From a virus: a DNA stretch of 20,717 nt. Positions 877-20,124 of the stretch are shown here, in pieces; positions within the stretch are counted from its first letter, which is position 1, and the number at the start of each line of letters is the position of its first letter. A model generated the notes under the pieces. That model was given only the letters and a program-made list of their open reading frames with translations. It had not been told where the DNA came from and made no database searches. The stretch is from the IMG/VR virus record IMGVR_UViG_3300033143_002846, positions 1 through 20,717 of that record, one strand, 5' to 3'. The position numbers and the translations under genes were made by a program.

Positions 877-885
877 GTAAAGAAG

Positions 886-3800: not shown

Positions 3801-4218
3801 ACCAGCTCCACTTTATATAGTTCAAAGAGATTACGACACCTTAGATATAGAACTTGAAATAAATATAACAGACATACAGATTGTAGGAACATCACCAGAT
3901 GGGTATAATGTCCAGACAGCTTTGCAATGGATGTTTGTTTATGAAAATAAAATGTATATACTTGTTAGTGGTATTCAATTATATGAAATAGATACAAATT
4001 TCCCTTACAATACTACATTAATAAATGACAACACAGCATTCTTTGGTCCAGGTGAGTTTAATAATCAATATTTAAGAACTTGGAGTAATGCAGGTGAATG
4101 TAATGGAAATTTATCTTTTATTCCATCAACAAGCCCAACTACCACTACCACTACTACTGTTGACCCATCAGGACCTAGTACAATATGGATAAAGTTTGAC
4201 CCTATAACACCAGCGTAG
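886..4218 (+). CDS. Modular tail/adsorption protein with N-terminal docking-type domain, Thr linkers and beta-propeller-like repeats
   Basis: This is a 1110-residue protein with no signal peptide. Residues 1-70 are a copy of the small beta domain shared by six genes here (F-D-L-Y-S-D-V-D-G-F-T-T-P-F). Residues 76-101 hold two 13-residue Cys repeats (N-C-D-F-S-G-E-I-N-C, then D-C-N-F-S-G-T-I-V-C). A run of seven Thr follows at 104-110. The remainder alternates regions with propeller-like strands (E-W-D-I-D-T-S, S-W-D-I-S-T-S, L-Y-E-I-D-T) and beta-sandwich-like regions. C-T-W occurs at residues 118 and 801, and a related A-T-W near 640, which suggests internal duplication. Seven Thr occur again at 1085-1091, followed by a short tail containing T-I-W-I-K-F. 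The stop is TAG, the only non-TAA stop in the window, with an in-frame TAA two codons later. I know no specific family for the whole protein. A tail appendage role is inferred from the neighbours. Confidence 0.75.
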   Translation: MIIFITLSFAGAESGPFDLYSDVDGFTTPFAQNVSKADLLLGYEVVAPDGTTTVRLLDLGADCAPFTTDIYNCATPNCDFSGEINCIIPDCNFSGTIVCPAPETTTTTTTGYPGFSPCTWSTYGGNPGEIAVYDFNTNSSTVVLVPNDFTTTSGINRPICSTSSKLWLASYPVNSTTCGNIDITQPEGFPNAVTGNGTKTLSNGIVLTTTYTGPDPIYDSTPGSFDLCDGFYINRTNTSTSASLALKVNGELTMEFDPPINCIQFISSAWGYSGDPKTEGDIEIVSVTSESSIIGEQILQCTRGNDEEDIPTYETIQISPNQVNMQAYQEFENSSFQVGSTKITAEDKGISQLVLTNISPTNVRGVIIDFYVGDFNVNNARPPELQYIREWDIDTSGPTPTLSFVREISIDVDNLSNRGIWGSEITAIATTSDNNTLLAGFGARDDGENSMGVYSWDISTSGNILLNENNKIDKANVSFGNTYGITTELTGMFITNDDNVIVSARYYENESPNNAANRVRQYEGLDLSSWTSSSPVINLQQRGVPEFTNAWTSTSKAMPVWGVNGLLQVIQPETLKVYNIDQVGPYDATLSGTVADDTVWIHTSTGCANVNIQYDDCEEATWIPALTEQVDGEWVYTGPATFTYAGVEVTASASQDNMQLRSGDTVGGIPQEGCSGISNPAANGVLRSVRGFDFTITLSFSEPVNNIPIRAAVLNSQPDLSGGDVYTFDTNTGTPNVSISVGCNVQVQGNIIGGGVPDYDTEGDGEFIITSDTPFTILTISGDAPTGGPILLGCVDVETTCTWARPARGTSGVDSFYRYNPLSNQYQFVDLPDSFGTPPDYIIGSGSSQNIMFQYLTNSSLERLSIKRWNLSDLSIVETSDPNNIIDISWPSDEYFLAPGVCVVNDNTLLLNSININNDPSTGKIYKLVINEDDSYTLTFLFDLLTDQSYWRTPIYSNNKIIYQRSDTQDGEPAPLYIVQRDYDTLDIELEINITDIQIVGTSPDGYNVQTALQWMFVYENKMYILVSGIQLYEIDTNFPYNTTLINDNTAFFGPGEFNNQYLRTWSNAGECNGNLSFIPSTSPTTTTTTTVDPSGPSTIWIKFDPITPA
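1111..1188 (+). repeat. Two 39-base tandem repeats encoding a Cys-bounded motif
   Basis: Two adjacent 13-codon units encode P-N-C-D-F-S-G-E-I-N-C-I-I and P-D-C-N-F-S-G-T-I-V-C-P-A. They are alike in protein but diverged in DNA. They sit between the N-terminal beta domain and the first seven-Thr linker of the 1110-residue protein, and each carries two Cys that could pair within the unit. Confidence 0.7.
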
Positions 4219-4227
4219 ATATAAATT

Positions 4228-5550
4228 ATGAAAGTAACACAAAAAATAAAAGATAAATTAAGAGAGGTTCGCAGATCAAATCCAGGTCTTACTTCTGTGT
4301 GGTATGGTTATAAATCATCTAATGGAGTTAGTACAGGAGAGTTGAGTGTTGTATGTGGTGTTGAAAAGAAAAAACCCCTTTCAGAATTATCTAATGATGA
4401 GATTATACCAACTGAAGTGAAAGTTGGAAGTCAGTCTATTAAAACAGATATTGTGGAAATAGGTAAACCAGAGCTACTAGGTACTTGTAATTCTGCATGT
4501 GGTCAAAACATAGGATCAGCATCAATACCTAACAGATCATATACAAGACCTATTAAAGGTGGTTTATCTATAAGTACAAACAATACATCAGGTGGTGTTG
4601 GTACATTTGGTTTAGTTGTAAAAGATGTTGCTACAGGAGCAATATTAGGACTTAGTAATAATCATGTTACAATTGCAGATGCATTTTATACAGACTCTAG
4701 AAATTTATCTGGAGTGATACAAAATGATTATGATCCAACAAATAATATATACCAAGGAACTGAAGGAACTGTTGCTGGAGGAAGTTGGACAGAATACTTC
4801 ACCTCAGCAAATATAATTGGAAGAGGTGTGAGATATGTTCCTGTTCACCCACAGAGTTCAGGATTAGTAAATAATGTAGATGCTGCATTATTCTCATTAA
4901 AATCTAATGTTATAAGTCTTTTTGAAAGTTGGAAGCAAGTAGGACTAGATTCAATTATAACAAGTAATCTCCCTTTTGCTACAACTTCGGAAATAGATAA
5001 TGCTCTTGCAAGTAACCCAGAATTATATAGTTCAGGAAGAACAACAGGTCCTAAAGGTGGAGCTAGTTGTCCCATGAGAATTTTTACAACAACAGGAGGA
5101 TTTCCTATTTCATATAAAAGACAAGGAGTAAGCACTCTTATTGAAATGGAAGATATTATAGGATATTTTAAACCTCCTTTAGAAGATCCTACATCACAAG
5201 ATCCAAGTGACCTTTGTTGTAACCCAGTAAGGGGTGGAGATTCAGGATCTGCTTTAATTGCTAATATAGGAGGAACTATAAAAGTAATTGGACTAGTTTT
5301 TGCTGGAGGTGGTTCAGGATGTGACGGTGGACAAAATTCATATCAAGTTGGATGGGCTTGCAGAATAGACGAAGTAGCTAACCAATTAGGAATTACTAGC
5401 CTTGATGCAGGTGATTTATTTACTGTTGTAAATGAAAACTCAATAGAGTATGTAACTGAACTTGGAGGAAGTGATCAAATAAATAAAGAATGTGATGGAG
5501 CAACTTATTGGCAAGTTGGTCTAACAGATACATTAAATAACCCTTGTTAA
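4228..5550 (+). CDS. Trypsin-like (chymotrypsin-fold) serine protease, Nal1-like type
   Basis: The 440-residue protein has a complete candidate catalytic triad: His146 in L-S-N-N-H-V, Asp218 in N-V-D-A-A-L-F, and Ser339 in R-G-G-D-S-G-S. The G-R-T-T-G motif at 270-274 and the V-I-G-L-V-F-A-G strand after the nucleophile also fit the family. The N-terminus (W-Y-G-Y-K ... T-G-E-L-S-V-V ... V-E-K-K-K-P-L-S-E-L ... I-P ... D-I-V-E-I-G) matches the N-terminal region I remember from bacterial trypsin-like proteins related to plant NAL1. There is no signal peptide, so it is probably packaged in the virion or acts during assembly. Sited between a modular adhesin-like gene and the tail-collar gene, it may cleave host surface proteins or process neighbouring tail proteins; both are inference. 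Six Cys lie in the C-terminal half. ATG at 4228 is in a TAAATTATG context, 9 bases after the previous TAG. Confidence 0.88.
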   Translation: MKVTQKIKDKLREVRRSNPGLTSVWYGYKSSNGVSTGELSVVCGVEKKKPLSELSNDEIIPTEVKVGSQSIKTDIVEIGKPELLGTCNSACGQNIGSASIPNRSYTRPIKGGLSISTNNTSGGVGTFGLVVKDVATGAILGLSNNHVTIADAFYTDSRNLSGVIQNDYDPTNNIYQGTEGTVAGGSWTEYFTSANIIGRGVRYVPVHPQSSGLVNNVDAALFSLKSNVISLFESWKQVGLDSIITSNLPFATTSEIDNALASNPELYSSGRTTGPKGGASCPMRIFTTTGGFPISYKRQGVSTLIEMEDIIGYFKPPLEDPTSQDPSDLCCNPVRGGDSGSALIANIGGTIKVIGLVFAGGGSGCDGGQNSYQVGWACRIDEVANQLGITSLDAGDLFTVVNENSIEYVTELGGSDQINKECDGATYWQVGLTDTLNNPC

Positions 5551-6687: not shown

Positions 6688-7014
6688 ATGGCATACCTAC
6701 CTGTAAACCCTTGCTGCACTGATGTAGTTTTAAATAACCCTTGTGGATGCACAAGTACATGTAATCAATGTACTAACTCCTGTGGAACAAATGGTACTGT
6801 ATCGAGCACAGTTGTGTACGATGGTCCAACTCTTCCAGGATCTGGTGTGGAAGCTTGTGATACAATCAATGTAGCATTATCAAAAATAGACTCTGTTCTT
6901 GTCGAGTTAAAAAATCAAGTTGCAACTAACACTAGTGACATTGCTTCTATTAAAGAACAGATAATAAACATTAACTCACAAATAACAAACATTAATAACA
7001 ACTGTTGTTCATAA
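6688..7014 (+). CDS. Small Cys-rich coiled-coil protein, probable fibre-associated subunit
   Basis: This 108-residue protein has ten Cys, seven of them in the first 32 residues (9, 10, 19, 21, 25, 28, 32), then Cys57 and a terminal pair at 106-107. Residues 42-59 (V-V-Y-D-G-P-T-L-P-G-S-G-V-E-A-C-D-T) match the N-terminal motif of the upstream collar protein. Residues 60-104 form a likely parallel coiled coil with Ile/Leu/Val spaced 3-4 apart (I-A-S-I-K-E-Q-I-I-N-I-N-S-Q-I-T-N-I). The layout suggests an elongated trimeric stalk or neck piece sharing an attachment element with the fibre. I recognise no named family. The dense Cys could bind metal or form disulfides after release. Its stop is 2 bases before the ATG of the next gene. 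Confidence 0.72.
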   Translation: MAYLPVNPCCTDVVLNNPCGCTSTCNQCTNSCGTNGTVSSTVVYDGPTLPGSGVEACDTINVALSKIDSVLVELKNQVATNTSDIASIKEQIININSQITNINNNCCS

Positions 7015-7016
7015 TC

Positions 7017-7265
7017 ATGACCGTACTACTAACCATATCTCAAATAGGACCTGATAACTCTGAATTTAACTTATACTCAGATGTAGATAATTTCACTACT
7101 CCTTTTGAAACAAATGTATCAGACACTGACTTGTTAAATGGATACACTAGTTCTCTAGTTCCAGATTACACAAACATTGTACGAGTGCAGGCTTTAGGCA
7201 AGTGCGTCAATTATTTGGATATAGTTTTAGAAAATATAACAACAACAACAACTTTAATACCTTAA
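7017..7265 (+). CDS. Stand-alone small beta domain protein (docking-type family), copy 2
   Basis: The 82-residue protein consists of the small shared domain (F-N-L-Y-S-D-V-D-N-F-T-T-P-F, then L-L-N-G-Y and I-V-R-V ... G-K-C), followed by N-I, five Thr and L-I-P. The frame extends back to a TTG at 7005 inside the previous gene. I chose ATG 7017 because it lies just after the upstream stop and because the other family members also start one beta strand before the conserved core. The Thr run at the C-terminus (7239-7253) ends in almost nothing, as if a linked domain had been lost or not yet gained. Function unknown; from the repeated fusion pattern it may plug tail proteins into a common platform. 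Confidence 0.75.
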   Translation: MTVLLTISQIGPDNSEFNLYSDVDNFTTPFETNVSDTDLLNGYTSSLVPDYTNIVRVQALGKCVNYLDIVLENITTTTTLIP

Positions 7266-7268
7266 ACC

Positions 7269-8510
7269 ATGTTAATACAAATAACCATAACCATTCCACC
7301 TGGAGGCGCTGCTGGACCTTTTGACTTATATTCAGATGCGGACGGATTTACAACTCCATTTGAAACACAAGTCCCAGCTGTAGATTTAGTAGCTGGATAT
7401 ACAGTTACACTTCCTATGGGAGCAACCATTATACGAGTTTGCTCTGTTGGTACATGTGAAAATTGTATTGACTTACCAACTAATTGTCCAACTACTACAA
7501 CAACAACTGTTGCACCTACCACTACAACAACAACAACGGTAGCTACAACAACTACAAGTACAACAGTAGCTCCGACAACAACAACAACAACTACTGCAGC
7601 AACAACAACTACAACTACCACTGCAGCAACTACTACAACTACTACCACTGCACCTACAACAACAACTACTACTACAGCAGCTACTACAACTACAACTACT
7701 ACTGGAAATCCTGAAAAGTTAGGTTGGGAACTTACAACTACTACAGCTTCTGAAATATTTGCTGTAGGTATGCAAATACTTGTAAATGATGTTGTTCAAG
7801 TTCAGGAAAGTATTGATGGAGCTAACTATCCGTTAACAGGTGAGATTCTGGTTGGTACAGGAGCAACCGTAAAAGTAATAGTTACAAATCAAAAGACTGG
7901 AATACATACTTTCCAAAACAGAGCACTATTACAAGGTCTTGGATCACCAGCTGTAATATTAAGTGATACTCAATCTGCAACTAATTCACTTGTTTCTGAT
8001 GTATCATTTATTAAAGGTGGACTTACAGAAGATCTTGAGGTCATTGGTAATATTATAGTAAATACAACAACTACTAGTACTACAACAATTATAGAGACAA
8101 CAACTACTAGTACAACCACTGCAGCCCCAACAACAACTACCACTACGACTAGTGCTGTAGGAGCTTGTGATTTAGGTACTATAACAGCAACTGCACCTTC
8201 TCAAACAACTACAACTACTACTACAGTGGGTGGGTTGACACAAGGATTATTAAGTGAATTTGGACAAACAAGTTCTACTTCTGCATGTACTCAAAGTACA
8301 ACATTAGATGTTTGGGTGTCCAACGTTAATGCAAGTAATGCACCAACTACTAGCTCTGTTATTTATCTGAATGCGATGGGAACTTCTGTTTTCCAAGGTA
8401 ATACTTTACAACCATGGCACATCTTTGAAGTTTCAGGTAGTGCACAGTATTCATTTGAAGTTGACGGAAATGGTAATGTTGGAGGACCAATCGATATATG
8501 TACAGTTTAA
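7269..8510 (+). CDS. Thr-linker-rich modular protein with N-terminal docking-type domain and C-terminal Cys-bounded domain
   Basis: This is a 413-residue protein. Residues 1-70 are the closest relative of the 886 gene's N-terminal domain (G-P-F-D-L-Y-S-D-A-D-G-F-T-T-P-F). Residues 75-145 are almost pure Thr in nine-residue units. A middle domain (about 149-264; W-E-L ... I-L-V-N-D-V-V-Q-V-Q) has beta-rich character. Two more Thr-rich stretches lie at 266-294 and 313-319, and the protein ends in a Cys-bounded domain (about 339-413) containing V-I-Y-L-N-A-M-G-T-S-V-F-Q-G-N and F-E-V-D-G-N-G-N-V. That last domain resembles one in the accessory part of the 2212-residue protein. There is no signal peptide or enzyme motif. 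The design looks like domains on extended stalks, so a virion surface filament or adsorption factor is likely, but this is inferred. Confidence 0.75.
   Translation: MLIQITITIPPGGAAGPFDLYSDADGFTTPFETQVPAVDLVAGYTVTLPMGATIIRVCSVGTCENCIDLPTNCPTTTTTTVAPTTTTTTTVATTTTSTTVAPTTTTTTTAATTTTTTTAATTTTTTTAPTTTTTTTAATTTTTTTGNPEKLGWELTTTTASEIFAVGMQILVNDVVQVQESIDGANYPLTGEILVGTGATVKVIVTNQKTGIHTFQNRALLQGLGSPAVILSDTQSATNSLVSDVSFIKGGLTEDLEVIGNIIVNTTTTSTTTIIETTTTSTTTAAPTTTTTTTSAVGACDLGTITATAPSQTTTTTTTVGGLTQGLLSEFGQTSSTSACTQSTTLDVWVSNVNASNAPTTSSVIYLNAMGTSVFQGNTLQPWHIFEVSGSAQYSFEVDGNGNVGGPIDICTV
7491..7703 (+). repeat. Poly-Thr tract of about eight nine-codon units
   Basis: Seventy-one codons encode units of six to seven Thr plus two small residues (V-A-P, V-A, A-A or A-P). 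The period is 27 bases, with one ten-codon unit. Thr codons are mixed ACA, ACT and ACC with a single ACG, so this is not a pure triplet microsatellite. It forms a long linker between the N-terminal domain and the rest of the 413-residue protein. Confidence 0.9.
8064..8150 (+). repeat. Second Thr-rich linker of the 413-residue protein
   Basis: This encodes T4-S-T3-I-I-E, T4-S-T3-A-A-P and T7. Two eight-residue Thr/Ser units precede a canonical seven-Thr unit. A further seven-Thr run lies at 8205-8225. Confidence 0.85.
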
Positions 8511-8536
8511 TTTATAAATCTTAAAAACAATATAAT

Positions 8537-8773
8537 ATGGCTTTTACCGTAAATGTAAAAATAACAGCACCAGTTGGAGCTGATTCAGGACCTTGTGATA
8601 TATATGAAAATGGTGATCTTTACACCACTCCTGTAGCTACTGGTGTGTCAATAAGCTCCCTCACATCACCAGCTGGTTTTGATGTTGGGGTAAATCAAAA
8701 CACAACACTTATAAGAGTTTATAACACTGGAACGTGTTCAAACTTTGAGACTGTTGCAATCTTATTTTCATAA
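8537..8773 (+). CDS. Stand-alone small beta domain protein, divergent copy
   Basis: The 78-residue protein is a divergent copy of the shared domain. It keeps the first beta strand (V-N-V-K-I-T-A), S-G-P-C-D-I-Y in place of G-P-F-D-L-Y, T-T-P at the core, and L-I-R-V ... T-G-T-C near the end. The S-D-x-D-G segment is replaced by E-N-G-D-L. It has no linker and no fused partner. The start context is an A/T-rich AATATAATATG, 26 bases after the previous stop, the widest gap inside this block. The function is unknown; membership of the family is clear from the order of the conserved positions. Confidence 0.7.
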   Translation: MAFTVNVKITAPVGADSGPCDIYENGDLYTTPVATGVSISSLTSPAGFDVGVNQNTTLIRVYNTGTCSNFETVAILFS

Positions 8774-8779
8774 TACAAT

Positions 8780-9007
8780 ATGACAGCTTTAATAAAAATA
8801 GACACAATAGGTGAAGATCTTCATTTGTTTAACCTCTACTCGGACATAAATAACTTTACAGCTCCATTTGCAACAAATGTAACTAGAGATGAACTGTTAG
8901 GTAAGGATAAAGTAGATGGTTATCCAACTGATCAATTGCCTGATTTAGCAACAGTTGTTAGAGTTATGGCAATTGATGAAGGGGTATTCCTAGATATTAA
9001 TGTATAA
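8780..9007 (+). CDS. Stand-alone small beta domain protein, last gene of the first block
   Basis: The 75-residue protein carries F-N-L-Y-S-D-I-N-N-F-T-A-P-F-A-T-N-V, closely matching the 7017 gene, then an insertion (G-K-D-K-V-D-G-Y) and V-V-R-V-M-A-I. It lacks the G-x-C end found in most copies. It starts 6 bases after the previous stop, and two abutting hairpins follow within 2 bases of its own stop, so it closes the transcription unit. Confidence 0.72.
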   Translation: MTALIKIDTIGEDLHLFNLYSDINNFTAPFATNVTRDELLGKDKVDGYPTDQLPDLATVVRVMAIDEGVFLDINV

Positions 9008-9181: not shown

Positions 9182-10423
9182 ATGTCGTACAATGAGAAAC
9201 TACTCAGACAGCTAGAGGGACTACTGGGCTGGAAGAAAAGTAAAAAGTTTTATGCTGAAAAGCTAAACATAACAGAAGATGAAGTAGATGAATTAATTAA
9301 GGAGATCAGAAGTAGAGACAAAGATGAAGGAGAAGCATTCTTAAAAACATCAAACGATTCAACAACCTTTGAATCACTAAAGAAGGTTAACAATGAGAAG
9401 GGAACTATAGAGAGTACGATTACTCTTGATTATGAACCTAAAGACCACCTGGAGCTAGCAAAGCTTCACAAAATAGACCTAGACAAATACATAATTACAA
9501 ACTACTGGTCTAAAGTACTTCCAAGCGGAAAGTTTACTTCCTCAGTATTTTCAAAGAGGAAAACACCAACAGATTACACAGCTGAGGATTTCAGCAAGTT
9601 CTTAGAGAACTATAAATCAAATTACATTCCAATCCCTTCACCAGAGAGAAATGGTAATAGAGATATTACAGATGTTGAAATATCTTTATCTGATTACCAT
9701 TTAGCAAAACGATACGTTGATGGTGATAACAATCCTGCAGTAAGAGCAAGAAGATTCTTTGATGTGGCTCAAAATTTGATGCACAAAGTAAGATCTGTTT
9801 ATGATGTAGACAAGGTGGTATTCCCAATATCTAATGACTTTTTTCATACAGATAACTATCAAAATTCAACAACAAACGGAACACCACAAGACACTATATT
9901 AGATTATTCTTCTGAGTATGAATTAGGTTTTGCAGTACTTGTAGATACTATCAAGATGTTAAAAGCAAACTCTAATCATGTAGAAGTTATATTAGTACAA
10001 GGTAATCATGATAGAACAAAGTCTTTTTATCTAGCACATGCATTAGATATATACTTTACAGATGAAAAGAATATAAGCTTTATAAGAGATGAAGGATTAA
10101 TAAAAGCAACTGTAGTTGGTGAAACATTTATAGGTTACCATCATGGGAACTGTAAGATAGATCAACTACCACTATTATTTGCCACTCATCCAAAGTATGC
10201 ATCTATGTTTGGTAATTCTAAATATAGAGAAGTCCATACAGGTGATAAACATCACTATATGGCTAAAGAAATAAAAGGGGTTAGAATACAACAAATGCCT
10301 AGTTTATCTGGTACAGATAGATGGCATAAAGATAACAACTTTGTACATAGTGTACGAGCTGCTCTTGCTTTAGTCTATGATAATGATCTTGGTAAGGTGG
10401 CTGAATTTGAAGAAAGAATATAA
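9182..10423 (+). CDS. Calcineurin-like metallophosphoesterase with N-terminal helix-turn-helix-like region
   Basis: This is a 413-residue protein. The metal-binding motifs of the metallophosphatase fold appear in order: D171-Y-H173; N218-D219-F-F-H222-T-D224 in place of GDxxD; G274-N-H-D277; H320-H321 in G-Y-H-H-G; and H352-T-G-D-K-H-H358. Residues 8-45 look like a winged-helix or helix-turn-helix segment (W-K-K-S-K-K-F-Y-A-E-K-L-N-I-T-E-D-E-V). Such enzymes hydrolyse phosphodiesters using two metal ions. Phage members next to structural genes are often annotated as DNA exonucleases or phosphoesterases, but the substrate here cannot be told from sequence. It is the first gene after the candidate promoter and is followed 2 bases later by a tail-ring gene. 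It may act on DNA during packaging or entry (inference). Confidence 0.85.
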   Translation: MSYNEKLLRQLEGLLGWKKSKKFYAEKLNITEDEVDELIKEIRSRDKDEGEAFLKTSNDSTTFESLKKVNNEKGTIESTITLDYEPKDHLELAKLHKIDLDKYIITNYWSKVLPSGKFTSSVFSKRKTPTDYTAEDFSKFLENYKSNYIPIPSPERNGNRDITDVEISLSDYHLAKRYVDGDNNPAVRARRFFDVAQNLMHKVRSVYDVDKVVFPISNDFFHTDNYQNSTTNGTPQDTILDYSSEYELGFAVLVDTIKMLKANSNHVEVILVQGNHDRTKSFYLAHALDIYFTDEKNISFIRDEGLIKATVVGETFIGYHHGNCKIDQLPLLFATHPKYASMFGNSKYREVHTGDKHHYMAKEIKGVRIQQMPSLSGTDRWHKDNNFVHSVRAALALVYDNDLGKVAEFEERI

Positions 10424-10425
10424 TT

Positions 10426-11151
10426 ATGGCAACATTAAGAAAATTGGTTTCAGATGTGCGATCTACGCATAAGATTTTATCAACTGATGCACTTATTACA
10501 GACAGAGCAATTGCTTCTGAAATAAGAAATAATGCCTTGACGTTAATTAAAAGAGAAACCAATGTAAGGAAGTTATGGGCTAGCGATACCCTGTTTACTA
10601 CCATTCCTTGTTTAGAGATGGTAGAAGTTCCTATTTCAGAATGTTGTGAATATGCTGACCCTTGCACTGTAGCAAGAACTAAATTTAAACTACCTAGAAT
10701 ATCAGAAGGTAACTATCAATATGTAATTCAAGGTGTTTACTCCATAAACGCTATGGGAGGAAAAGGTACTAAACTAAAAGAAATAACAATAAACAGATAT
10801 CTAAATATACTGAAACTTAGAATAATTAAAAAGGACAGTTATTTTTGGATATCTAATGGTTACTTATATGTGAGTAACCCATTATTAAAATCAATAAGGT
10901 TGGCAGCATTATTTGAAGAAGATGTGCCTAATGAAATAATGTATCCAGATTGTGATTGTGGCACAAATTATTCTGTAGAGGATCTATGTAAGAACCCACT
11001 GGATAAAGAATATGCACTTCCTGGATACTTAGAGCAACAAGTCCTTGCAATGACTTCTACAAAACTTTTATCTACATATTTTCAAATTAAGACAGATATG
11101 AGTAACGAAGGAATAGATGGACAAGCACCAAACGCCCAGCCTACAAATTAA
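10426..11151 (+). CDS. crAss-like tail-ring / connector type structural protein
   Basis: The 241-residue protein starts M-A-T-L-R-K-L-V-S-D-V-R-S. It has a helical N-terminal region (V-R-K-L-W), then V-A-R-T-K-F-K-L-P-R-I, and further on Y-F-W-I-S-N-G-Y-L-Y-V-S-N-P. A cluster D-C-D-C precedes L-P-G-Y-L-E-Q-Q-V at the C-terminal helix. These elements, and the position before two other ring-like genes and a giant tail protein, match from memory the tail-ring proteins of crAss-like phages, which stack below the portal. I cannot say which ring it is. The C-terminal 20 residues are polar and probably disordered. Gene spacing is 2 bases upstream and 6 downstream. Confidence 0.6.
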   Translation: MATLRKLVSDVRSTHKILSTDALITDRAIASEIRNNALTLIKRETNVRKLWASDTLFTTIPCLEMVEVPISECCEYADPCTVARTKFKLPRISEGNYQYVIQGVYSINAMGGKGTKLKEITINRYLNILKLRIIKKDSYFWISNGYLYVSNPLLKSIRLAALFEEDVPNEIMYPDCDCGTNYSVEDLCKNPLDKEYALPGYLEQQVLAMTSTKLLSTYFQIKTDMSNEGIDGQAPNAQPTN

Positions 11152-11157
11152 TAACAA

Positions 11158-11637
11158 ATGGCTAGAGTCTCTGTTGATTGGAGAAGTGCAAGTAAAGATA
11201 ACTACAATGATTTCTGTAAGAAACACCCTTTGGTGAATCTGTCTTTTGATGAGTGGAGAAATATATTGTATCAGTACAATGATGCATTTAAACACTATAT
11301 ATTAGAAACAGGAAAGAAAGAAAAGTTAGTAGGTAGCCTTGGACAATTTTCTATAAACAAAAAGAAAAGAAGAAGAGTGAAAGGTGTAGATGGTAAAGAG
11401 TTTGTTAACTTACCTATTGACTGGCAGAAAACTAAAGAGAAAGGAAAAGTTATATATAACTTTAACTATCACACAGAAGGATATTTCTTTGGGTGGATGT
11501 GGTTTAAAGATAGCGCTAGATTTAGGAACTCTGAATTATGGTACTTTAAACCCTCAAGAATTACCTCAAGATTATTATCACACTATATAAAAACTGACGA
11601 TAAATACCAACACATGTATCATGAATGGAAAAAATAA
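11158..11637 (+). CDS. Conserved crAss-like tail/connector protein
   Basis: The 159-residue basic protein contains L-S-F-D-E-W-R-N-I-L-Y-Q-Y-N (29-42), a Lys/Arg-rich patch K-K-K-R-R-R after F-S-I-N, L-P-I-D-W-Q-K-T-K-E-K-G-K, and a His/aromatic stretch N-Y-H-T-E-G-Y-F-F-G-W-M-W-F. It ends in Y-H-E-W-K-K. I recall this combination as a very conserved small protein in the tail-ring cluster of crAss-like phages. It is most likely a ring or adaptor subunit; the basic patch could contact DNA in the tail channel, which is inference. It lies between two ring-type genes with 6- and 3-base gaps. Confidence 0.6.
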   Translation: MARVSVDWRSASKDNYNDFCKKHPLVNLSFDEWRNILYQYNDAFKHYILETGKKEKLVGSLGQFSINKKKRRRVKGVDGKEFVNLPIDWQKTKEKGKVIYNFNYHTEGYFFGWMWFKDSARFRNSELWYFKPSRITSRLLSHYIKTDDKYQHMYHEWKK

Positions 11638-11640
11638 ATT

Positions 11641-12615
11641 ATGTCGTACTACTATAAATACAATTTTATTTCCCCAGAGCCTATATACGCTACTGTAAAA
11701 GAAGAACTTAAAAGTTACTTTGATACAGGTGCTGTAGATGATTTGCTCTTCCCTACCTATCTAGACAAGTGTCTAAGAAAGCTAGGCAGAACTACTTATG
11801 TAATAAGTGAACAAGTGTTGTTTATTGAAGACTTTCAAGCAAGATTACCAGATAACTTTCATGCTGTTAGAGAAGCTTGGATGTGTGCTGAGATACCAGG
11901 AAACCCTTATCCTTCTGCTACATCATTCTATTCACAAGCAGCTAATGCAACAACAATACAAATATCCCCACTAACAATAGGAGGAACACCTTGTAACAAT
12001 CCTGAGTGTCAACATCCAAGTTGTGATGGTACATGTATGCCTGAATTAGTTCAAGCAGTATATAAAACAAACAACGAGATAGCTAGATCATATAGACATA
12101 GTTATTTACTAAGACCAGGTAATATTTCTACAAGAAAACAATGTGATGTAAGTTACAGAAATGACTGGAACAACTTTGCACCACCTGTAAGAGAGTTTAC
12201 TCCTGGATCTGCAACCTATGATTCATTTGATATTAGAGATAATAAGTTTGTAACTAATTTTAGAAATGGCGTAGTTCACTTAATGTTTTATGCCACAGAA
12301 TATGATACAACAGGAAATCAACTGGTTCCTGATAATTATCGTATAGCAGAATATGTTGAATCATTTCTTAAGTTCAAAGTTTTTGAAACATTAACTAATC
12401 AAACAAATGATGAAACTTTTAATCAACTTCAACAAAAGCTGGCTTATTATAAGCAAGAATATAATGAGAAGTATATAGAAGCAGAGATTGAAATTAAAAA
12501 ACAAACTCCTTGGGAGAAACAAAGGAGAATAAAAAAAGACTTGAACAGGTTTAACAAGTATGAACTTCCAACTCGTACAAATAGATACGGTACAAGAAGA
12601 AGACGCAATAATTAA
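11641..12615 (+). CDS. crAss-like tail-ring type structural protein
   Basis: The 324-residue protein begins M-S-Y-Y-Y-K-Y-N-F-I-S-P-E-P-I, then V-K-E-E-L-K-S-Y-F-D-T-G and D-L-L-F-P-T-Y-L-D-K-C-L-R-K-L-G. The middle holds a Cys cluster (C-N-N-P-E-C-Q-H-P-S-C-D-G-T-C) followed by L-L-R-P-G-N-I-S-T-R and F-D-I-R-D-N-K-F-V-T-N-F-R. The C-terminal third is helical and highly charged (E-I-E-I-K-K-Q-T-P-W-E-K-Q-R-R-I) and ends in an Arg/Asn-rich tail. From memory this is one of the best conserved ring proteins of the crAss-like tail, in the functional place of podovirus tail-tube or adaptor proteins. Its neighbours support this. The Cys cluster may bind zinc or iron. Confidence 0.68.
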   Translation: MSYYYKYNFISPEPIYATVKEELKSYFDTGAVDDLLFPTYLDKCLRKLGRTTYVISEQVLFIEDFQARLPDNFHAVREAWMCAEIPGNPYPSATSFYSQAANATTIQISPLTIGGTPCNNPECQHPSCDGTCMPELVQAVYKTNNEIARSYRHSYLLRPGNISTRKQCDVSYRNDWNNFAPPVREFTPGSATYDSFDIRDNKFVTNFRNGVVHLMFYATEYDTTGNQLVPDNYRIAEYVESFLKFKVFETLTNQTNDETFNQLQQKLAYYKQEYNEKYIEAEIEIKKQTPWEKQRRIKKDLNRFNKYELPTRTNRYGTRRRRNN

Positions 12616-12620
12616 GAATT

Positions 12621-15600
12621 ATGGCTAAACAGCAATCAAAAAAAGATTCTGACAAAACAAAGAAGCAGGGTAACATTAGATTAAATCCAAGTGTTGCTAG
12701 GACAGGATTAAACCTAGACAGCTCTATTAATCAAGTTGGTCCTGGAAGACTTACGTATGCTTTAAATGCTGCTGTAGAAAACTTTGACTCTAGTTCTGTA
12801 AACTATCAGAATGAGCCAGGTAATGAGTTGTGTTTAGATTTTCCTTCAGGATATAAACTTATTGGTTCTCATTTTATTCCTGAGAAACGTAAGAATATAT
12901 TCTTTTTAGCCAACCCAAGTATAGGAGGTAGCGAGATTGGGTTTATGGACAATAATGATTGTCAATATCAAACACTTGTAAATGCTCCTTGTCTTAACTT
13001 TGATGTAAATCATCCAATCCCTAAAATTGTACATAGAATAACAAACTGTTCAACAGAACTCTACTGGACAGATGGAGTTAATCCTAGAAGATATTTAGAC
13101 ATAGAAAATATTCCTTATGTAATTAATTTAACAGCAGAGGGTAGCATTTGTAATTCTACAGAAACTGATCAGCTTGATTGTAATCAGCTTAAAATTCAAC
13201 CTAACTTTGACATACCTCAATTAATGATCACTCAGATCAGAAATATAGGTAATTTAAAAGCAGGTACATATCAGTTTGCAATTCAATACTCAGACGCAAG
13301 TGGTAATGAACTTACATCATACTATTCTGTAACTAACCCTTTACCTATTGCTGATGAGTTTACAACAACAGTAAACTTTGATTACCCAGTAGGGAAATCT
13401 ATTGTTGTAGGTGTATCTAATTTAGATTTATCAGGACAGTTTGAATATTACAACTTAGCCGTAATAAAAACTATAAATAACATAACTTCAGTTGAAATTG
13501 TTGGTACATATAGTATTGAAGATTCTACAAGAGAAGTAACTTATACAGGAGGAGATCAGTCACCTATACAGCTTTCCATATCAGATATATTTGAAAAGTT
13601 TCCATATTATGATATTGCACAAGATGTTACAGCTGTACAAGATGTTCTTGTTTGGGACAATCTTACATCTATTGATAGAATCAACTACCAGTCAATTGCA
13701 AATCAAATAACACTCGGTTGGGAGACTTACAGAATACCAGCAGATGAAAATTATGCAGATGAATTAAATGCTGTGAATCTTCGTGGATACATGCGTGATG
13801 AAGTGTATGCATTTGAAATTGTATTTTTATTAAAGAATGGTAAACAGACAGACGGTTTTCACATTCCAGGAAGACAAAGGGGTAGTAACGAATCTTATCC
13901 TGATGTAGCTGATTCAGGACCTAATCAAAATAACGATTTTATTGGAGACCCTGACTACTATGCTGGTGATGTAGGTTATAAATCTTGGTGGAAAGTTTAC
14001 AATACAGCTTCTGTGACAGGAGCCTCTACAGGACAATCTAGTGATCCAAACTACAAAGGACCTTGGGAATATGGTGAGTTTGCATACTGGGAATCAACAG
14101 AAACGTATCCTTGTGAGCCAGATGTTTGGGGAGATTTATCTGAACAACCTATCAGACATCACAAATTTCCAGATGTAGCAGTAAGTCCTATTATAGAAAA
14201 CGGACCAATAGTGTATGACAATGATAAAATTGTTCCTACAATGCAGGACGATGCTGTATTTCCTATTGGTGTAAAAATAGATAATACACAGGTATTTCAA
14301 TTAATTCAAAATTCTGGATTAACACAAGATCAGAAAGATGATATTGTTGCCTACAAGATTGTAAGAGCTGACAGAGGAACAAACAAATCTATAATAGCAA
14401 AAGGTATACTTAGAAATGTAAACAAGTATACTAGAGATGAAGAAGACTACTACTATCCTAACTATCCGTATAATGATCTATCTTCAGACCCATATATTTT
14501 AGCAAACAATAATGCATGGAGTGCTGACTCTGAAGCATACTTAGTGTATTTACCAGAAGCTGAACCAGATACAAGTACTTTTCTTGCAATAATTCAAGGA
14601 CTTGAAGTAACGGTGAATGAAAATGAGGGCGTATTTGAGTATACTAGTGCACTGAATGGTAAAGTGACGCAAGCAGTTATACAATTAGATGAAGTTGTTG
14701 AAATCTGTTCATTAACAAGACCTGTTCCACTTTTAGGTAAGATGGTAATTGGTCCTGGTAATTATGATGTATGGAGAGTATTTACTGATAATACTCTGAC
14801 TTCATGTGGACATAGAATACGTTGGTTTGATCCATTTACTGATTGGAATGATACACCTTATGTTGATGGGGTATTTAGAACCCAATATATGTTTGATAAT
14901 GGAGCTATAGGTAACTCAAAGAAATATACAGTTATTACTGAAGTGGGAGCATCAGCACCAGACGTGATAGAATGTGGTAGAGTTTGGGTAGGCTGGTGGG
15001 TAGATTGTTGTAGACCTAGACAGACATTAATGCCAGAGCAAGTGTTTGGTCCTGGAGAAGTTGAAAATCCTCCAGGGGTTAAAAAAGGTTCTGATTATGA
15101 AGGATCCAGTACAAGTAACAATGGCTGGATAGGTAGAAGAACAAAAAGTAGAAGATCTTCTTTAGGTTGTAAAGCTGAAAAACCTCAACCTTCAATTGAA
15201 GAACAAGAAGGTGAAGACATTACATACAGACAAGTATTTAATTCACCAGAAACATCTTTTGGCCAACCGTTCTTAGGAAGTGTGTTAAAGCTTGAGAGTG
15301 TAATGTTCGGTGGTGGAAAAGCTCATTGGGTAAGCGTTAAAGATAATGCTAACTACAAGCTTCTTTCTAAAGAGGCCCAACAAGATGCATTAGATAGCTC
15401 AAAGAAAATGGCTAGCTTATCAGATCCAGAAAGTTTAGGTGTGATGTTTACAGCATATCAAGCATATCTAACTATCTACGTAAATGGTATTACAAGAAAG
15501 AACTATGCAATGTCATTTAACTCTAGAGCTAATTATGATTATTCTTTTGATATAGGTAATAATGTAAATGGAGGAATCAAACAAAGAGACATAGATTTAA

Positions 15601-18600
15601 CTAGATACTTAATACCAGGTGTACAATCATTAGGTCCTAAGGAAGAGTATTCTATAAATAACTGGAACAGAGAGACTTCTGTGTTTATAAAAACATTGGA
15701 GGAAAGAGAATTACCTAGTAGTACTATAGTGTCTGTTCCCCCTTTACCTTTTCCAAGTCAAACACCTAGTCTACTTAGTGTAGGAGATCCACTTATAGAA
15801 GATAAATCTAGATTTACAATAGGTAATAAAGGTGCATGTCCTACTCCTGAAAAACAACAAGATCTTACAGTAGTATCATACTATGCATCTATGAAAAACA
15901 TTTTTCCAAATCAATATGGACAAATGTATTCATATACTACTATTGATACAGGATATCAAGCACTTGTAAAAGAAACAGGAACTTCTACAATATTTGGTGG
16001 AGATACATTTATTTCTAGATTTGCATTTAAAACAAAGCTTCCATACTTTATAGATAATAGAGTGGGTGCTCCAGATGATAGTGATATATTTTACGATGAG
16101 ATTGGTAATATTGGATACCCAAGATATTGGCACTCTGCAAGATCTATATTAGAAGATTATAATTTAGATTTTGATGGTGAAACAACTCCTGTAAGAAACC
16201 TAATTTCATACAAGGCACACAACTTTGATTGTCCTAATGATCCATCTACTATAGAACCAGGAGGAGGAGCATATAGAACTTTCTATGATGGATATATGTA
16301 TTTGTTTGCATATGGTATTCCAAACTTCTATTGTGAAACTACATACAACACAGACTTACGTCAAGCATTTAATAATAAAGAAGGGGACTTCTGGCCTCAC
16401 GTAAGTTCTGGCATTCCTGATGATTGGTTACAAGAAACAAACGTACCTATTGCACAGGATAACACTTATTATTATAATGTAACATATTCTAAACAGAACA
16501 AAGAGAACGTATTCTCACATCTTCCACCTGATTGGAAAGATGACTTATGTTATACAGTGTTCCCATTCAGAGCTATTTATTCTGATGCAGCTATAACAAC
16601 TGCTGACTCTAGAGTTAATAACTGGTTAGTTTATAGAGCATTATCATTTCATGACTTCCCACAGAATTATGGGAATCTTACATCATTAGATGGTATTCAA
16701 AATAAAGCAATACTTGCACGATTTGAGAACAAGTCATTATTATATAACAATCTTCTTACAATTGACACAAGTAATCCACAAGCTGCATATATTGGTAATC
16801 CAAGACTATTTGATAGTTCTCCACCAATTGACTTTGCTGAAACAGATTTAGGATATGTAGGAAGCCAGAATAAGTTCTTATTAAAAATACCCCAAGGTCA
16901 AATCACTGTAGATGCTAAGAGAGGACAAGTGTTCCTAGTTTCAGGAACTAAAGTTCAAGATCTTACAGCATTTGGTTCTGGTGTAAATAGGTTTATGGCA
17001 GATCATTTACCTTTTGAGATACTCGAACATTTTCCAAATGTACCTACAGACAATCATTTTAACAGTATTGGATTACATGGTGTATATGATAGTAAGTTTG
17101 AAAGAGTAATTATTACCAAGCGTGATTATATTCCTCTTCGTGATGATATTCAATATGATGAAGACACAGGAGAGTTCTATATTGAAGGTGAAACTGCACG
17201 TCTTTTCAAACAAGCAGATCCAACAGCAAAATTACCAAACAATTGTCAACCATATATAAGTTCAACATTTGAAGGAACTTTACGCATTGAATATATTCCT
17301 TGTGGGGATGATGTTATTGAGCTTATTGAATTTGAGTGTCAAGGTAATAGTTGTGGAGGAGTTTTGGTGCCATGTGCTGAACAAATAATATTTAGTAATG
17401 TAAGTCTTATAGGATTAGGTTCTTGTGGAGATGAGACAACTACAACTACTAGTACGTCTTCTTCAACTACAACTACCACTACAACATCTAATGAAACTAC
17501 TACTACTACAACTACAGTAGAGGTAACTACTACCACTACAACTTTAGAAGAAGTCCCTAGTGATCCTCCAAGGCATATAATATATCTTGAAGATGAAGAA
17601 TATTTCTGTAATAAATCTTGGACAATCTCCTTTGACTTTAATACAAAGAGTTGGATATCTTTTCATTCATATATTCCAAACTTCTACATAGGAGAGAATA
17701 ACTTCTTCTATTCAGGGGTAAATGGATGTTGTACAAGTGATGGTTCTGCAAATCTTGAAGTTCTAGCAGGTGAACTATTACCTCCTACTTTACCAACCAC
17801 TACTACCACTACTACAAAAACAACATTGTTTCCAACTACAACAACTACTACTACATTTAGAGATTTAGTAATAGAGGGTGGTGAAGTTACACCTACTTAT
17901 TGTGAACTTTCTGGTGGTACAGGAATAATAACAATAACTACCACTACAACAGCTCCATGTTACACTCCATCAGAGAATTCAATAACTGATAGTTTTTTAG
18001 AAGGATATCAAATAGTTGGAGGATCTCCAACAATTAGCACAGGCTCATCACAAGATGCGTGTAGAGCAATGAATTTAATATCTTCAAATGTATTAGGAAT
18101 TTATATACAAGTTTCTTATGACAGTTATGATATAGGTGAAGCAGTATATGTTTGGGATCCAATAGCTCCATATTGCGAAGGTCTTTCAGAAGGTTGGTAT
18201 TCTAATACAGAAAATACCGATAGTGTCTTTTATGTAGCTTCTAATTCTAGAATTGAACAAATAGAATATTGTGATTCCTGTTTAAGTACAACTACTACTA
18301 TAGCTCCTCCACCAGAACTAGATGAATGTTGTGGATTTGTTTCAGTAACTCCTGAAGGCTTATACATAAGTGGAGGTTCTGAAGACTCTGATACACAAGA
18401 TGGTTATGTAAATGTTCCAGGATTTGCATACTCAGCAACAACAGGTGTTGCTTTTACGTCAAGTAAGTTATGGACTATAGATACAGACATAAAAGAATGG
18501 GACATTACACTTTCTCCATTTACAGCAACATTCAACAGAGATATAACATATGGAGAAACTCCAAGCGTTGCAGGTAATATTGCACTAAGTGATACGGTAT

Positions 18601-19259
18601 TGTTAGGTGTAGATTCTACTGTAGCTCCACAGAAGATTCTAGAAATAGATATTACAGCAAATACAGCTGTAGTAAATGTACAATTTGAAATACAACTAAA
18701 TAGAGTTGTTGAAAGTAATTTATTATACACTAAAGAAAATAAGTTAGTTTTAATATCTAAAGACGGACTAGACTACTACATTACACAATTTGATTACTCT
18801 AGTGGTAATGTTGAATTAGATGTAAGTCTTGGACAACTCACTGGACGTATTATGTTATTTGAATGTGATTGTATAATTAATGTTATACTTGACAATGTAT
18901 TATACATATTTGATTCAACTCAAGGGCTTGTTAATGTAAGTGAAACAGATCCTAGTCTTATTCCACCAGGTGAGAGTGCTAAAGATTTTAAAACACTGAG
19001 TCAATCAGCAGCATATCTAAATTGTGGAATTGAAAATACAACCACAACAAGTACTAGCACATCTACTACAACTAGCACCACTACACTTTCACCAACTTGC
19101 TATGAGTATGAAGTAAGTGGACCAATAGCAACATACTATACAGATTGTTTTGGTCAGCAACAAGTAATAAGTTTAGGTAGTGGACAAACACAAATAGTAT
19201 GTGCAGGTCTAGGAATAATAGGAGCAACATTAATAGGACCATGTAACAACCCAGTTTAA
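12621..19259 (+). CDS. Giant crAss-like tail stabilisation/muzzle-type protein with Thr-linked accessory domains
   Basis: This is a 2212-residue protein. Residues 1-1605 look like the conserved body: N-terminal G-N-I-R-L-N-P-S, then G-P-G-R-L-T-Y-A-L-N-A, Y-W-T-D-G-V-N-P-R-R-Y, C-C-R-P-R-Q-T and Y-D-S-K-F-E-R-V. Thr runs at 1606-1641 precede a conserved segment with W-I-S-F-H-S-Y-I-P-N-F-Y-I (about 1676-1688). More Thr runs (1726-1745) then introduce accessory parts: a Cys-bounded domain (about 1780-1889), a propeller-like domain (about 1894-2135; E-W-D-I, L-E-I-D-I, Q-F-D-Y, Y-I-F-D), another Thr/Ser linker (2140-2155) and a small terminal domain (Y-T-D-C-F-G-Q-Q-Q-V). In crAss-like phages I recall this protein running as one chain through the W-I-S-F-H-S segment into a C-terminal part. 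Here that part appears to be encoded separately by the next gene. The product probably forms the distal tail assembly. Confidence 0.72.
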   Translation: MAKQQSKKDSDKTKKQGNIRLNPSVARTGLNLDSSINQVGPGRLTYALNAAVENFDSSSVNYQNEPGNELCLDFPSGYKLIGSHFIPEKRKNIFFLANPSIGGSEIGFMDNNDCQYQTLVNAPCLNFDVNHPIPKIVHRITNCSTELYWTDGVNPRRYLDIENIPYVINLTAEGSICNSTETDQLDCNQLKIQPNFDIPQLMITQIRNIGNLKAGTYQFAIQYSDASGNELTSYYSVTNPLPIADEFTTTVNFDYPVGKSIVVGVSNLDLSGQFEYYNLAVIKTINNITSVEIVGTYSIEDSTREVTYTGGDQSPIQLSISDIFEKFPYYDIAQDVTAVQDVLVWDNLTSIDRINYQSIANQITLGWETYRIPADENYADELNAVNLRGYMRDEVYAFEIVFLLKNGKQTDGFHIPGRQRGSNESYPDVADSGPNQNNDFIGDPDYYAGDVGYKSWWKVYNTASVTGASTGQSSDPNYKGPWEYGEFAYWESTETYPCEPDVWGDLSEQPIRHHKFPDVAVSPIIENGPIVYDNDKIVPTMQDDAVFPIGVKIDNTQVFQLIQNSGLTQDQKDDIVAYKIVRADRGTNKSIIAKGILRNVNKYTRDEEDYYYPNYPYNDLSSDPYILANNNAWSADSEAYLVYLPEAEPDTSTFLAIIQGLEVTVNENEGVFEYTSALNGKVTQAVIQLDEVVEICSLTRPVPLLGKMVIGPGNYDVWRVFTDNTLTSCGHRIRWFDPFTDWNDTPYVDGVFRTQYMFDNGAIGNSKKYTVITEVGASAPDVIECGRVWVGWWVDCCRPRQTLMPEQVFGPGEVENPPGVKKGSDYEGSSTSNNGWIGRRTKSRRSSLGCKAEKPQPSIEEQEGEDITYRQVFNSPETSFGQPFLGSVLKLESVMFGGGKAHWVSVKDNANYKLLSKEAQQDALDSSKKMASLSDPESLGVMFTAYQAYLTIYVNGITRKNYAMSFNSRANYDYSFDIGNNVNGGIKQRDIDLTRYLIPGVQSLGPKEEYSINNWNRETSVFIKTLEERELPSSTIVSVPPLPFPSQTPSLLSVGDPLIEDKSRFTIGNKGACPTPEKQQDLTVVSYYASMKNIFPNQYGQMYSYTTIDTGYQALVKETGTSTIFGGDTFISRFAFKTKLPYFIDNRVGAPDDSDIFYDEIGNIGYPRYWHSARSILEDYNLDFDGETTPVRNLISYKAHNFDCPNDPSTIEPGGGAYRTFYDGYMYLFAYGIPNFYCETTYNTDLRQAFNNKEGDFWPHVSSGIPDDWLQETNVPIAQDNTYYYNVTYSKQNKENVFSHLPPDWKDDLCYTVFPFRAIYSDAAITTADSRVNNWLVYRALSFHDFPQNYGNLTSLDGIQNKAILARFENKSLLYNNLLTIDTSNPQAAYIGNPRLFDSSPPIDFAETDLGYVGSQNKFLLKIPQGQITVDAKRGQVFLVSGTKVQDLTAFGSGVNRFMADHLPFEILEHFPNVPTDNHFNSIGLHGVYDSKFERVIITKRDYIPLRDDIQYDEDTGEFYIEGETARLFKQADPTAKLPNNCQPYISSTFEGTLRIEYIPCGDDVIELIEFECQGNSCGGVLVPCAEQIIFSNVSLIGLGSCGDETTTTTSTSSSTTTTTTTSNETTTTTTTVEVTTTTTTLEEVPSDPPRHIIYLEDEEYFCNKSWTISFDFNTKSWISFHSYIPNFYIGENNFFYSGVNGCCTSDGSANLEVLAGELLPPTLPTTTTTTTKTTLFPTTTTTTTFRDLVIEGGEVTPTYCELSGGTGIITITTTTTAPCYTPSENSITDSFLEGYQIVGGSPTISTGSSQDACRAMNLISSNVLGIYIQVSYDSYDIGEAVYVWDPIAPYCEGLSEGWYSNTENTDSVFYVASNSRIEQIEYCDSCLSTTTTIAPPPELDECCGFVSVTPEGLYISGGSEDSDTQDGYVNVPGFAYSATTGVAFTSSKLWTIDTDIKEWDITLSPFTATFNRDITYGETPSVAGNIALSDTVLLGVDSTVAPQKILEIDITANTAVVNVQFEIQLNRVVESNLLYTKENKLVLISKDGLDYYITQFDYSSGNVELDVSLGQLTGRIMLFECDCIINVILDNVLYIFDSTQGLVNVSETDPSLIPPGESAKDFKTLSQSAAYLNCGIENTTTTSTSTSTTTSTTTLSPTCYEYEVSGPIATYYTDCFGQQQVISLGSGQTQIVCAGLGIIGATLIGPCNNPV
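17436..17543 (+). repeat. Thr/Ser linker inside the giant protein
   Basis: It encodes T5-S-T-S3-T7, S-N-E, T7, V-E-V and T6. It interrupts the conserved body just before the W-I-S-F-H-S segment. Codons are mixed ACA/ACT/ACC. Confidence 0.88.
17796..17855 (+). repeat. Paired seven-Thr linker at the accessory-domain junction
   Basis: It encodes T7-K-T-T-L-F-P-T7. It marks where the conserved chain of the giant protein gives way to accessory domains. Shorter Thr runs follow near 17937 and 18288. Confidence 0.88.
19038..19085 (+). repeat. Thr/Ser linker before the last domain of the giant protein
   Basis: It encodes T4-S-T-S-T-S-T3-S-T3. It joins the propeller-like domain to the final small Cys-containing domain (about 19090-19259). 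Confidence 0.85.
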
Positions 19260-19260
19260 T

Positions 19261-20124
19261 ATGAAAACAATAGTAATAAAATTAACTTTTTCTGGACCAA
19301 ACGCAGGCCCATTTGACATACTTACTCGGTCAGGACAAGTATTGTTATTAGCTGTGACTAGAGATCAGTTAATAAATGGAATTACTGTTAATGTTGATGA
19401 CAATGCTTCATCAATTATAATTAGATCAAACGGAGATTGTAAATTTGAAAAAATCATACCACTTGTAGATATTCCTATGGATGAGTATCAGGAAGCTAAA
19501 TATGCTCAAGATACTACAGGATGTTTGTGGACACACCTAAGGAATCCACAAATATATAATTATTACTATGGTAATATTGAACCCTACATTATAGAATACC
19601 CATTTGCTTATAAATATAACGATGAGATACTTCAGAATGTAAAAGATTATAGTAAAGTGTATAGATATTTACCTTCAACAGCTGGAGCTTTTGATAGTAA
19701 TAGAAAAGTACAAATAGATGATAAATGGTTTAACAAGGCTGTATTATATAACGGTCAACAGTCTACAGGATTGTTGGAACTTGTTCCTAAGCCAGAAAAT
19801 AATCTGTCAGCATATATGCAATATCCTATATTAAATAATGACAGTAAGACTATTACGTTCACCAAAAGTGATAACTTTTATCAGTATAATACATTCTGGG
19901 CATTACAGAAAAATGAGCAGATACCACTATTTAATACATCTTGTCAATCTCTTTCTATTGATAAAGTTATTAATCAATCTAATATGGACTATGGTCCTAA
20001 ATCATTTGGTAAGTCAACCCTTAGAGCTAAAAACTTAAAGGTGAGACATATACTTGATGACTCATCAACAACACACATTATAAGTCAGTTTATTGTAACA
20101 CCATCACAAATATCATATAAGTAA
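19261..20124 (+). CDS. Docking-type domain fused to the probable detached C-terminal part of the giant tail protein
   Basis: This is a 287-residue protein. Residues 1-65 are a divergent copy of the shared small beta domain (T-I-V-I-K-L-T-F ... G-P-F-D-I-L ... V-T-R-D-Q-L-I-N-G ... I-I-I-R-S-N-G-D-C). Residues about 80-287 differ completely: L-W-T-H-L-R-N, Y-Y-Y-G, P-Y-I-I-E-Y-P-F, then G-L-L-E-L-V-P-K-P-E-N-N, Y-P-I-L-N-N-D-S-K-T-I-T-F and F-W-A-L-Q-K-N. From memory these resemble the C-terminal region of single-chain crAss-like stabilisation proteins, which follows their W-I-S-F-H-S segment. The gene begins 1 base after the giant protein's stop and in another frame. The likely history is domain insertion that split the chain, leaving the two products to rejoin non-covalently. 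The homology call is a recollection and untested. Confidence 0.7.
   Translation: MKTIVIKLTFSGPNAGPFDILTRSGQVLLLAVTRDQLINGITVNVDDNASSIIIRSNGDCKFEKIIPLVDIPMDEYQEAKYAQDTTGCLWTHLRNPQIYNYYYGNIEPYIIEYPFAYKYNDEILQNVKDYSKVYRYLPSTAGAFDSNRKVQIDDKWFNKAVLYNGQQSTGLLELVPKPENNLSAYMQYPILNNDSKTITFTKSDNFYQYNTFWALQKNEQIPLFNTSCQSLSIDKVINQSNMDYGPKSFGKSTLRAKNLKVRHILDDSSTTHIISQFIVTPSQISYK

Follow-up and report, generated by a model that had tools for sequence, protein, structure and literature searches.

The window, i.e., the whole stretch of DNA analysed, spans 20,717 bases and is a fragment of a virus. It carries a giant ORF (2212 aa) followed by a shorter one, ORF2 (287 aa), with a single base (19260) between the TAA of the former and the ATG of the latter; the two frames differ. 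An exonuclease and a structural protein, then two or three small genes, precede the muzzle (9182-12615); FpV4 and Fpv1 share this order, but have one extra small gene. Downstream of the WISFHSYIPNFYI segment the giant contains Cys-Cys, Thr runs (17796-17816, 17835-17855 and 19038-19085) and Cys-bearing domains, i.e., about 510 residues of Thr-linked accessory domains and then a stop (Table 1). The sequence and the ORF calls thus bear out the first-pass annotation, according to which the giant keeps this segment and runs on through Thr linkers and Cys domains to a stop, the next gene starting one base later in another frame.

Table 1. Positions of the features of the two-gene muzzle locus and of the genes sharing the ORF2 N-domain (numbering of the window).
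Feature	Position	Strand	Evidence
Giant chain: muzzle body, two accessory insertions and stop	12621..19259	+	PHROG 37948, E 3.6e-117; PHROG 15100, E 1e-31
Thr linkers of the giant's first insertion (loop preceding the conserved segment and cut in other loci)	17436..17543	+
Conserved segment YLEDEEYF...WISFHSYIPNFYI...FYSGVN, last core piece of the giant (aa 1655-1701)	17583..17723	+	Alignments, HMM
Giant C1663, candidate partner of ORF2 C228	17607..17609	+	Concordant in 244/244
Giant C1703, candidate partner of ORF2 C88	17727..17729	+	Concordant in 204/204
Giant C1704, candidate partner of ORF2 C60	17730..17732	+	Cys in 203/203 aligned split loci
Accessory tail: Thr linkers and Cys-bearing domains, exchanged between relatives	17733..19256	+
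Break between the genes: TAA (19257-19259), one base, ATG	19257..19263	+
ORF2: N-domain and muzzle C-terminus	19261..20124	+
ORF2 N-domain (about residues 1-82), common to other tail genes	19261..19506	+	Profile; AF2
ORF2 C60	19438..19440	+	Cys in 203/203
ORF2 C88, immediately ahead of LWTH	19522..19524	+	Covariation with giant C1703
Muzzle C-terminal domain: propeller edge strand and presumed ring-joining domain	19525..20121	+	PHROG 15100; L204 model
ORF2 C228	19942..19944	+	Covariation with giant C1663
Genes opening with the N-domain (about 75 residues)	877-4215, 6999-7262, 7266-8507, 8525-8770		Profile

A profile search divides PHROG 15100 (1783 positions) between the two ORFs: the best stretch of the giant corresponds to positions 9-416 (E 1e-31) and residues 87-285 of ORF2 to positions 1588-1781 (E 5.5e-12). 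The proposal that the second gene carries the missing C-terminal part is therefore upheld. The 31 phage records matched by ORF2 in tblastn are each matched solely from residue 77-89 onward. Both parts are found in one annotated gene in Lbo-JY46, FpV4, Fpv1, csAssE-Sib and Cellulophaga phi17:2, and in one ORF of the unannotated record MT837925, the sixth public single-chain relative; the csAssE-Sib protein (WOZ57294) is annotated with the note 'Muzzle protein'. Both halves of this protein and of that of Lbo-JY46 (XAI97387) align with the two ORFs of the window; each is nevertheless encoded by one gene, with a short, cysteine-free loop at the junction. As had been predicted, the profile alignment falls C-terminal to the conserved segment, and since single-chain homologues exist, neither of the two contrary outcomes named in advance (no alignment to such homologues, or homologues always in two genes) occurred. 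Up to E 0.1, Pfam gave no family on either ORF of the window, and in particular no intein domain such as a split intein would require. Sequence searches of the PDB gave 0 matches for the giant, ORF2 and profile A1, and megablast against phages gave no match.

As regards the features of a crAss-like muzzle: (i) the giant has the N-terminal body homology (PHROG 37948 and 15100, and gp44 through single-chain relatives); (ii) ORF2 has the C-terminal domain and adjoins the body in the genome; (iii) the core domains lie in two ORFs and not in a single polypeptide. The locus is thus filed as a two-chain variant of the crAss-like muzzle. Gene fission and the homology of both parts are practically certain.

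The cut can be placed precisely. In single chains the segment (ending, e.g., in FETG or FYSW) is followed by a short loop, then by a W-x-H motif and YQ-x-YYG-like residues; in the window the core of the giant stops at aa 1701 and picks up in ORF2 at residue 89 with LWTH. Against phiCrAss001 gp44, a profile built from six single-chain relatives gave 95.7% in hhalign over gp44 109-395, i.e., the N-terminal part only. The C-terminal match required 18 relatives, whose C-termini gave 54.1% (local) and 91.7% (global), against 0.2% for a reversed gp44 control (local); with the last 371 residues of gp44 alone, the same profile gave 61.5% (local). In the 18-relative alignment the cut loop falls at about gp44 residue 1235. 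Both the N- and C-terminal parts of the relatives thus match gp44 (PDB 7qok, 7qol), which differs from the present protein in being one chain of 1371 aa, without cysteine past residue 1235. In PMC10172136, gp44 is described as a hexameric tail tip whose length varies by insertions in the crass and IG2 domains.

The AlphaFold2 model of the last 480 residues of the single-chain protein L204 (mean pLDDT 69.9) resembles 7qol_P 1119-1371 (Z 14.4, rmsd 4.5, 247 aligned) and 7qok_A, the same protein (Z 14.1); the next row, another phage portal-tail complex, has Z 11.0. Foldseek gave E 7e-9 for the L204 C-terminus. In the model, strands 278-281 and 289-291 flank the loop at which the split occurs in other loci. 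It is for L204 that the fold of gp44 1119-1371 is seen; the C-terminal part of ORF2 itself, modelled alone, gave a poor model, with pLDDT blocks of 23-50 versus 65-90 for its L204 equivalent beside the segment, a comparison confounded by the different diversity of the alignments. In the T7 nozzle gp12, according to PMC6702177, behind the propeller comes a C-terminal platform domain, which attaches to the adaptor and includes three strands from the N-terminus; a disulfide joins blades 7 and 1, and a fibre dock lies on the outer surface after the propeller. However, gp12 is a single chain and the structural match is weak (7ey9, Z 8.1; 7boy, Z 7.9). By analogy, ORF2 presumably carries the equivalent of this ring-joining platform domain, its C-terminal domain probably connecting muzzle and tail barrel.

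Scans with the C-domain, with or without the preceding segment, and with the whole ORF2 gave, together with reference records and the window, 512 entries, i.e., 244 distinct complete loci after removal of 254 duplicates and 14 incomplete entries. At least 204 distinct loci, window included, are split, versus 40 whose segment and C-domain share an ORF; the counts derive from the best 80 matches of each scan and do not reflect natural frequencies, the whole-ORF2 query being biased toward split loci by its N-domain. Among the matches listed for the scan seeded with single chains, there are 27 loci, of which 26 carry the two parts in a single ORF and one is truncated by the end of its contig. All 204 split loci form one clade and are cut at the same loop. 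In the body tree (1387 columns without the junction, 69 rows) the split clade comprises 54 rows with support 100. This tree is based on a thinned set: close copies were removed, twenty named distant single chains were omitted by hand, a body match was lacking for seven single chains, and L008, a relative, stands in for the window, which is itself part of the trees used for the cysteine switches (see below). Two single-chain rows are nested in the split clade, L208 (with L069, support 100) and L206 (with L253 and L230, support 98), and look re-fused; the L208 ORF runs off the contig end behind the junction. The simplest reading of the tree would be one gain and two re-fusions, three changes in all.

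A further cut, before the segment, occurs in 24 of the 204 split loci; the chain bearing the segment there begins 14-49 residues upstream of it, and the body ORF is seen upstream in 22. These 24 loci leave no room for the docking domain by which, according to the first-pass annotation, the chains are re-tethered. L095, L096, L098 and L103 (L096 being a duplicate, the others three distinct loci among the 40) likewise have a muzzle in two genes beside the same segment, but the cut is in the other loop, before the segment, and the downstream ORF opens with a different module, rich in Cys and about 55 residues long. In L095, L096 and L103 the upstream ORF ends in Cys (cut region around 7.7-8.7 kb). 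More than 100 bases with further ORFs separate the giant from ORF2 in 39 of the 204 loci, and in 33 of these an intervening ORF opens, as judged by eye, with the GPF motif of the ORF2 N-domain. In L253 the two are 4.3 kb of genes apart (3.4-7.7 kb), some of which resemble by eye the protease-like ORF 4228-5550 of the window (PHROG 20754, E 5.3e-16).

ORF2 contains exactly three cysteines (60, 88 and 228), each with a candidate partner near the break in the giant, where C1703 and C1704 sit after FYSGVNG. Both Cys are conserved in the first 79 close loci; this was not scored as covariation, since nothing varied there. In the 204 split loci the residues at (C1703, C1704, C88) are C,C,C in 150, G,C,S in 44, G,C,T in 5 and S,C,S in 5, with 0 discordant. 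By corrected mutual information (203 loci, one of the 204 having no body match; effective number 123), C1703-C88 is rank 1 of 214,410 inter-chain column pairs, and ranks 2 and 3 pair the same giant stub with ORF2 residue 85. Of the 1406 giant columns, C1703 alone is an error-free predictor of the C88 class (baseline 73.4%); the best column away from the junction reaches 96.6% agreement by descent alone. On the 203-row body tree the C1703/C88 state switches 5 times, both chains together in 5/5, and in 3/3 on supported branches.

Of the 244 loci, 220 have C1663 together with C228 and 24 have neither residue, again with 0 discordant; the single-chain rows, among them Lbo-JY46, which has both, are divided 16 to 24. 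Independent switches on supported branches are concordant in 4/4 (sign test 0.125); with 5 and 4 switches, the sign test cannot reach 0.05 for either pair alone. Since this concordance holds in single chains too, an ancestral intrachain disulfide would have become an interchain one. The putative bond is not general to muzzle proteins, as gp44 has Thr at the position aligned to C1663 and lacks a late Cys. C1704 and C60 are both Cys in all aligned split loci and show no variation within them; they appear and disappear together with the split. L208 keeps the equivalents of C1703, C88, C1663 and C228 but C1704 and the N-domain are missing, while in L206 the N-domain, C1703, C1704 and C88 are all missing; among single chains, only L101 and L208 have a Cys in the loop. 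C1704-C60 is the weakest pair, since it is invariant in split loci and, by eye, C60 has a counterpart in the N-domain of four other genes of the window. In three split loci the giant has no Cys beyond C1704, whose partner there would thus lie outside the tail. Cysteine pairs are in sum conserved together across the two chains, as looked for in a disulfide-linked two-chain protein; disulfides between tail proteins of phiCrAss001 are reported in PMC10172136. C1703-C88 as the staple that came first was rejected, the earliest-branching split rows having Gly/Ser there (body tree, deep forks with support 87-98), so that the ancestral role falls to C1663-C228.

The tail after C1704 varies from 12 to 853 residues (median 276), with a median Thr share of 20%. 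Locus pairs with tails of at least 100 residues were grouped by C-domain identity; the share of pairs in which less than 20% of the unmasked tail is alignable is 11% (113 pairs) at ≥95%, 43% (292) at 90-95%, 22% (317) at 85-90%, 45% (1644) at 80-85% and 74% (15,212) below, a turnover that is not monotonic with distance. It fits a fast exchange of surface modules; a role in receptor binding is suggested by position and turnover. In L211, L240 and L228 the tail has very long Thr/Ser tracts between small repeated modules, which is suggestive of repeat-driven module exchange. A propeller had been placed in the accessory tail of the window, where Pfam finds no match: for the ten tails searched (the window and nine related), it gave a DUF5122 beta-propeller in two of the nine relatives and nothing in the other eight tails. 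Three split loci have only 12-27 residues after Cys-Cys, so that accessory domains are dispensable for the persistence of the split. Hence, of the idea of a muzzle split by accessory insertion, the split of a single-chain muzzle within a clade stands, and insertion as its cause is unproven.

A profile from 85 ORF2 N-domains matches the N-termini of four other ORFs of the window (E 4e-4 to 7e-7), in agreement with the earlier view of a small shared domain at the start of the second gene. By eye, each of the four has a cysteine near the C60 position, and ORF 8780-9007 looks N-domain-like without a profile match. The N-domain is predicted by AF2 to be mainly beta (pLDDT 78-91 in blocks of residues 1-80). 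Among known structures, a type IX secretion C-terminal domain (8gl8_D) comes closest to it (Z 6.1, rmsd 2.4, 65 aligned; best Foldseek E 0.1); naming the fold after it was dropped, as common Ig-like arrangements may reach Z 6.1 too. The N-domain may contribute to the tether through C60.

Taken together, we favour, with a probability of about 0.74, a two-chain crAss-like muzzle whose homologous parts form a joint fold, held by as many as three putative interchain disulfides. It is very likely that the two chains assemble into one muzzle. The giant would supply the propeller, the tip domains and an exchangeable Thr-linked tail, and ORF2 the closing strand and the C-terminal domain. Of the candidate disulfides, C1663-C228 would go back to the single-chain ancestor, C1703-C88 would postdate the split, and C1704-C60 would be linked to the N-domain; standing in place of the lost peptide link, they would leave the broken loop free to end in swappable surface modules. 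The first-pass annotation had a covalent connection exchanged for a two-chain assembly: the two chains are found, and the covalent link is probably kept in another form, the matched cysteine pairs being the stronger tether signal.

Assembly by shape only, i.e., by beta-sheet complementation, with cysteines that are lineage markers or serve other bonds, is the alternative to be weighed most carefully, and we regard it as unlikely. It would account for the 54 of 204 split loci without the C1703-C88 pair. Moreover, in the control on 40 single-chain rows, 5 of 18,282 segment-by-C-domain indicator pairs are perfect, of which C1663/C228 is one and the four others are perfect by descent alone. Against it, the partners switch together in 9/9 cases over the two pairs (7/7 on supported branches), the covarying pair stands exactly at the break, and C1663 and C228 are kept in 204/204 split loci. 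Recombination could move both junction residues together; for an exceptionless covariation with nine independent switches, seven of them on supported branches, disulfides appear to be the best explanation.

It is quite improbable that the ORF2 product has become a separate minor tail protein, gone from the C-terminal site of the muzzle. The added N-domain, common to other tail genes, would suit such a role, but no second copy of the C-domain occurs in another ORF in any of the 204 split loci, 28 ORF2 rows are 54-72% identical to that of the window, and the junction residues coevolve. A single chain obtained by frameshift, bypass or stop read-through, i.e., no real split, is hardly credible: open frames do overlap in 82 of the 204 loci (by 20 bases in the window), but in the other 122 the ORF2 frame opens only past the upstream stop, and the explanation fails since frames do not overlap there. 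The upstream stops are TAA in 197, TGA in 5 and TAG in 2 loci, relative to the upstream gene the frame of ORF2 differs in 153 loci and is the same in 51, and further ORFs intervene in the 39 loci mentioned above. A sequencing or assembly error, conceivable for a fragment and in view of L039 and L040, which look frame-shifted elsewhere in the gene, has next to no chance given the same gene border in 204 distinct loci.

A wider version of the two-chain reading, which we put forward tentatively and with the odds somewhat against it, is that the break is a maintained cassette slot. The ancestral disulfide at the propeller end would have made the peptide bond dispensable; fission would have allowed freely exchangeable receptor-binding modules, extra disulfides would have re-laced the chains and some lineages would have re-fused. 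The slot would also take further N-domain genes, and a redox-sensitive seam might help muzzle opening.

A break in the muzzle is unexpected, as this protein closes the tail and must withstand packed DNA. In the open-licence PubMed Central literature we found no description of a split muzzle or nozzle, of gene fission with a disulfide in phage tails, or of a tail nozzle in two; where 'split' occurs with the Crassvirales muzzle in this literature, it refers to functional modules. What is new is that each of the three cysteines of ORF2 has a candidate partner beside the break, and the prediction is specific to named residues. If true, there would be a natural series from a single chain with a disulfide, to a split, to a split with an extra disulfide, to a re-fused chain, showing stepwise how, and why, fission of a core structural protein is tolerated, the freed loop being a site of domain swap. 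For annotation, short ORFs behind crAss-like muzzle genes may belong to the muzzle.

The inter-chain pairs ranked 6, 7 and 19 connect a giant residue near 41 with ORF2 residues near 216, 219 and 246; a coupling of the giant N-terminus with the ORF2 C-domain is as expected if the platform is built from both ends.
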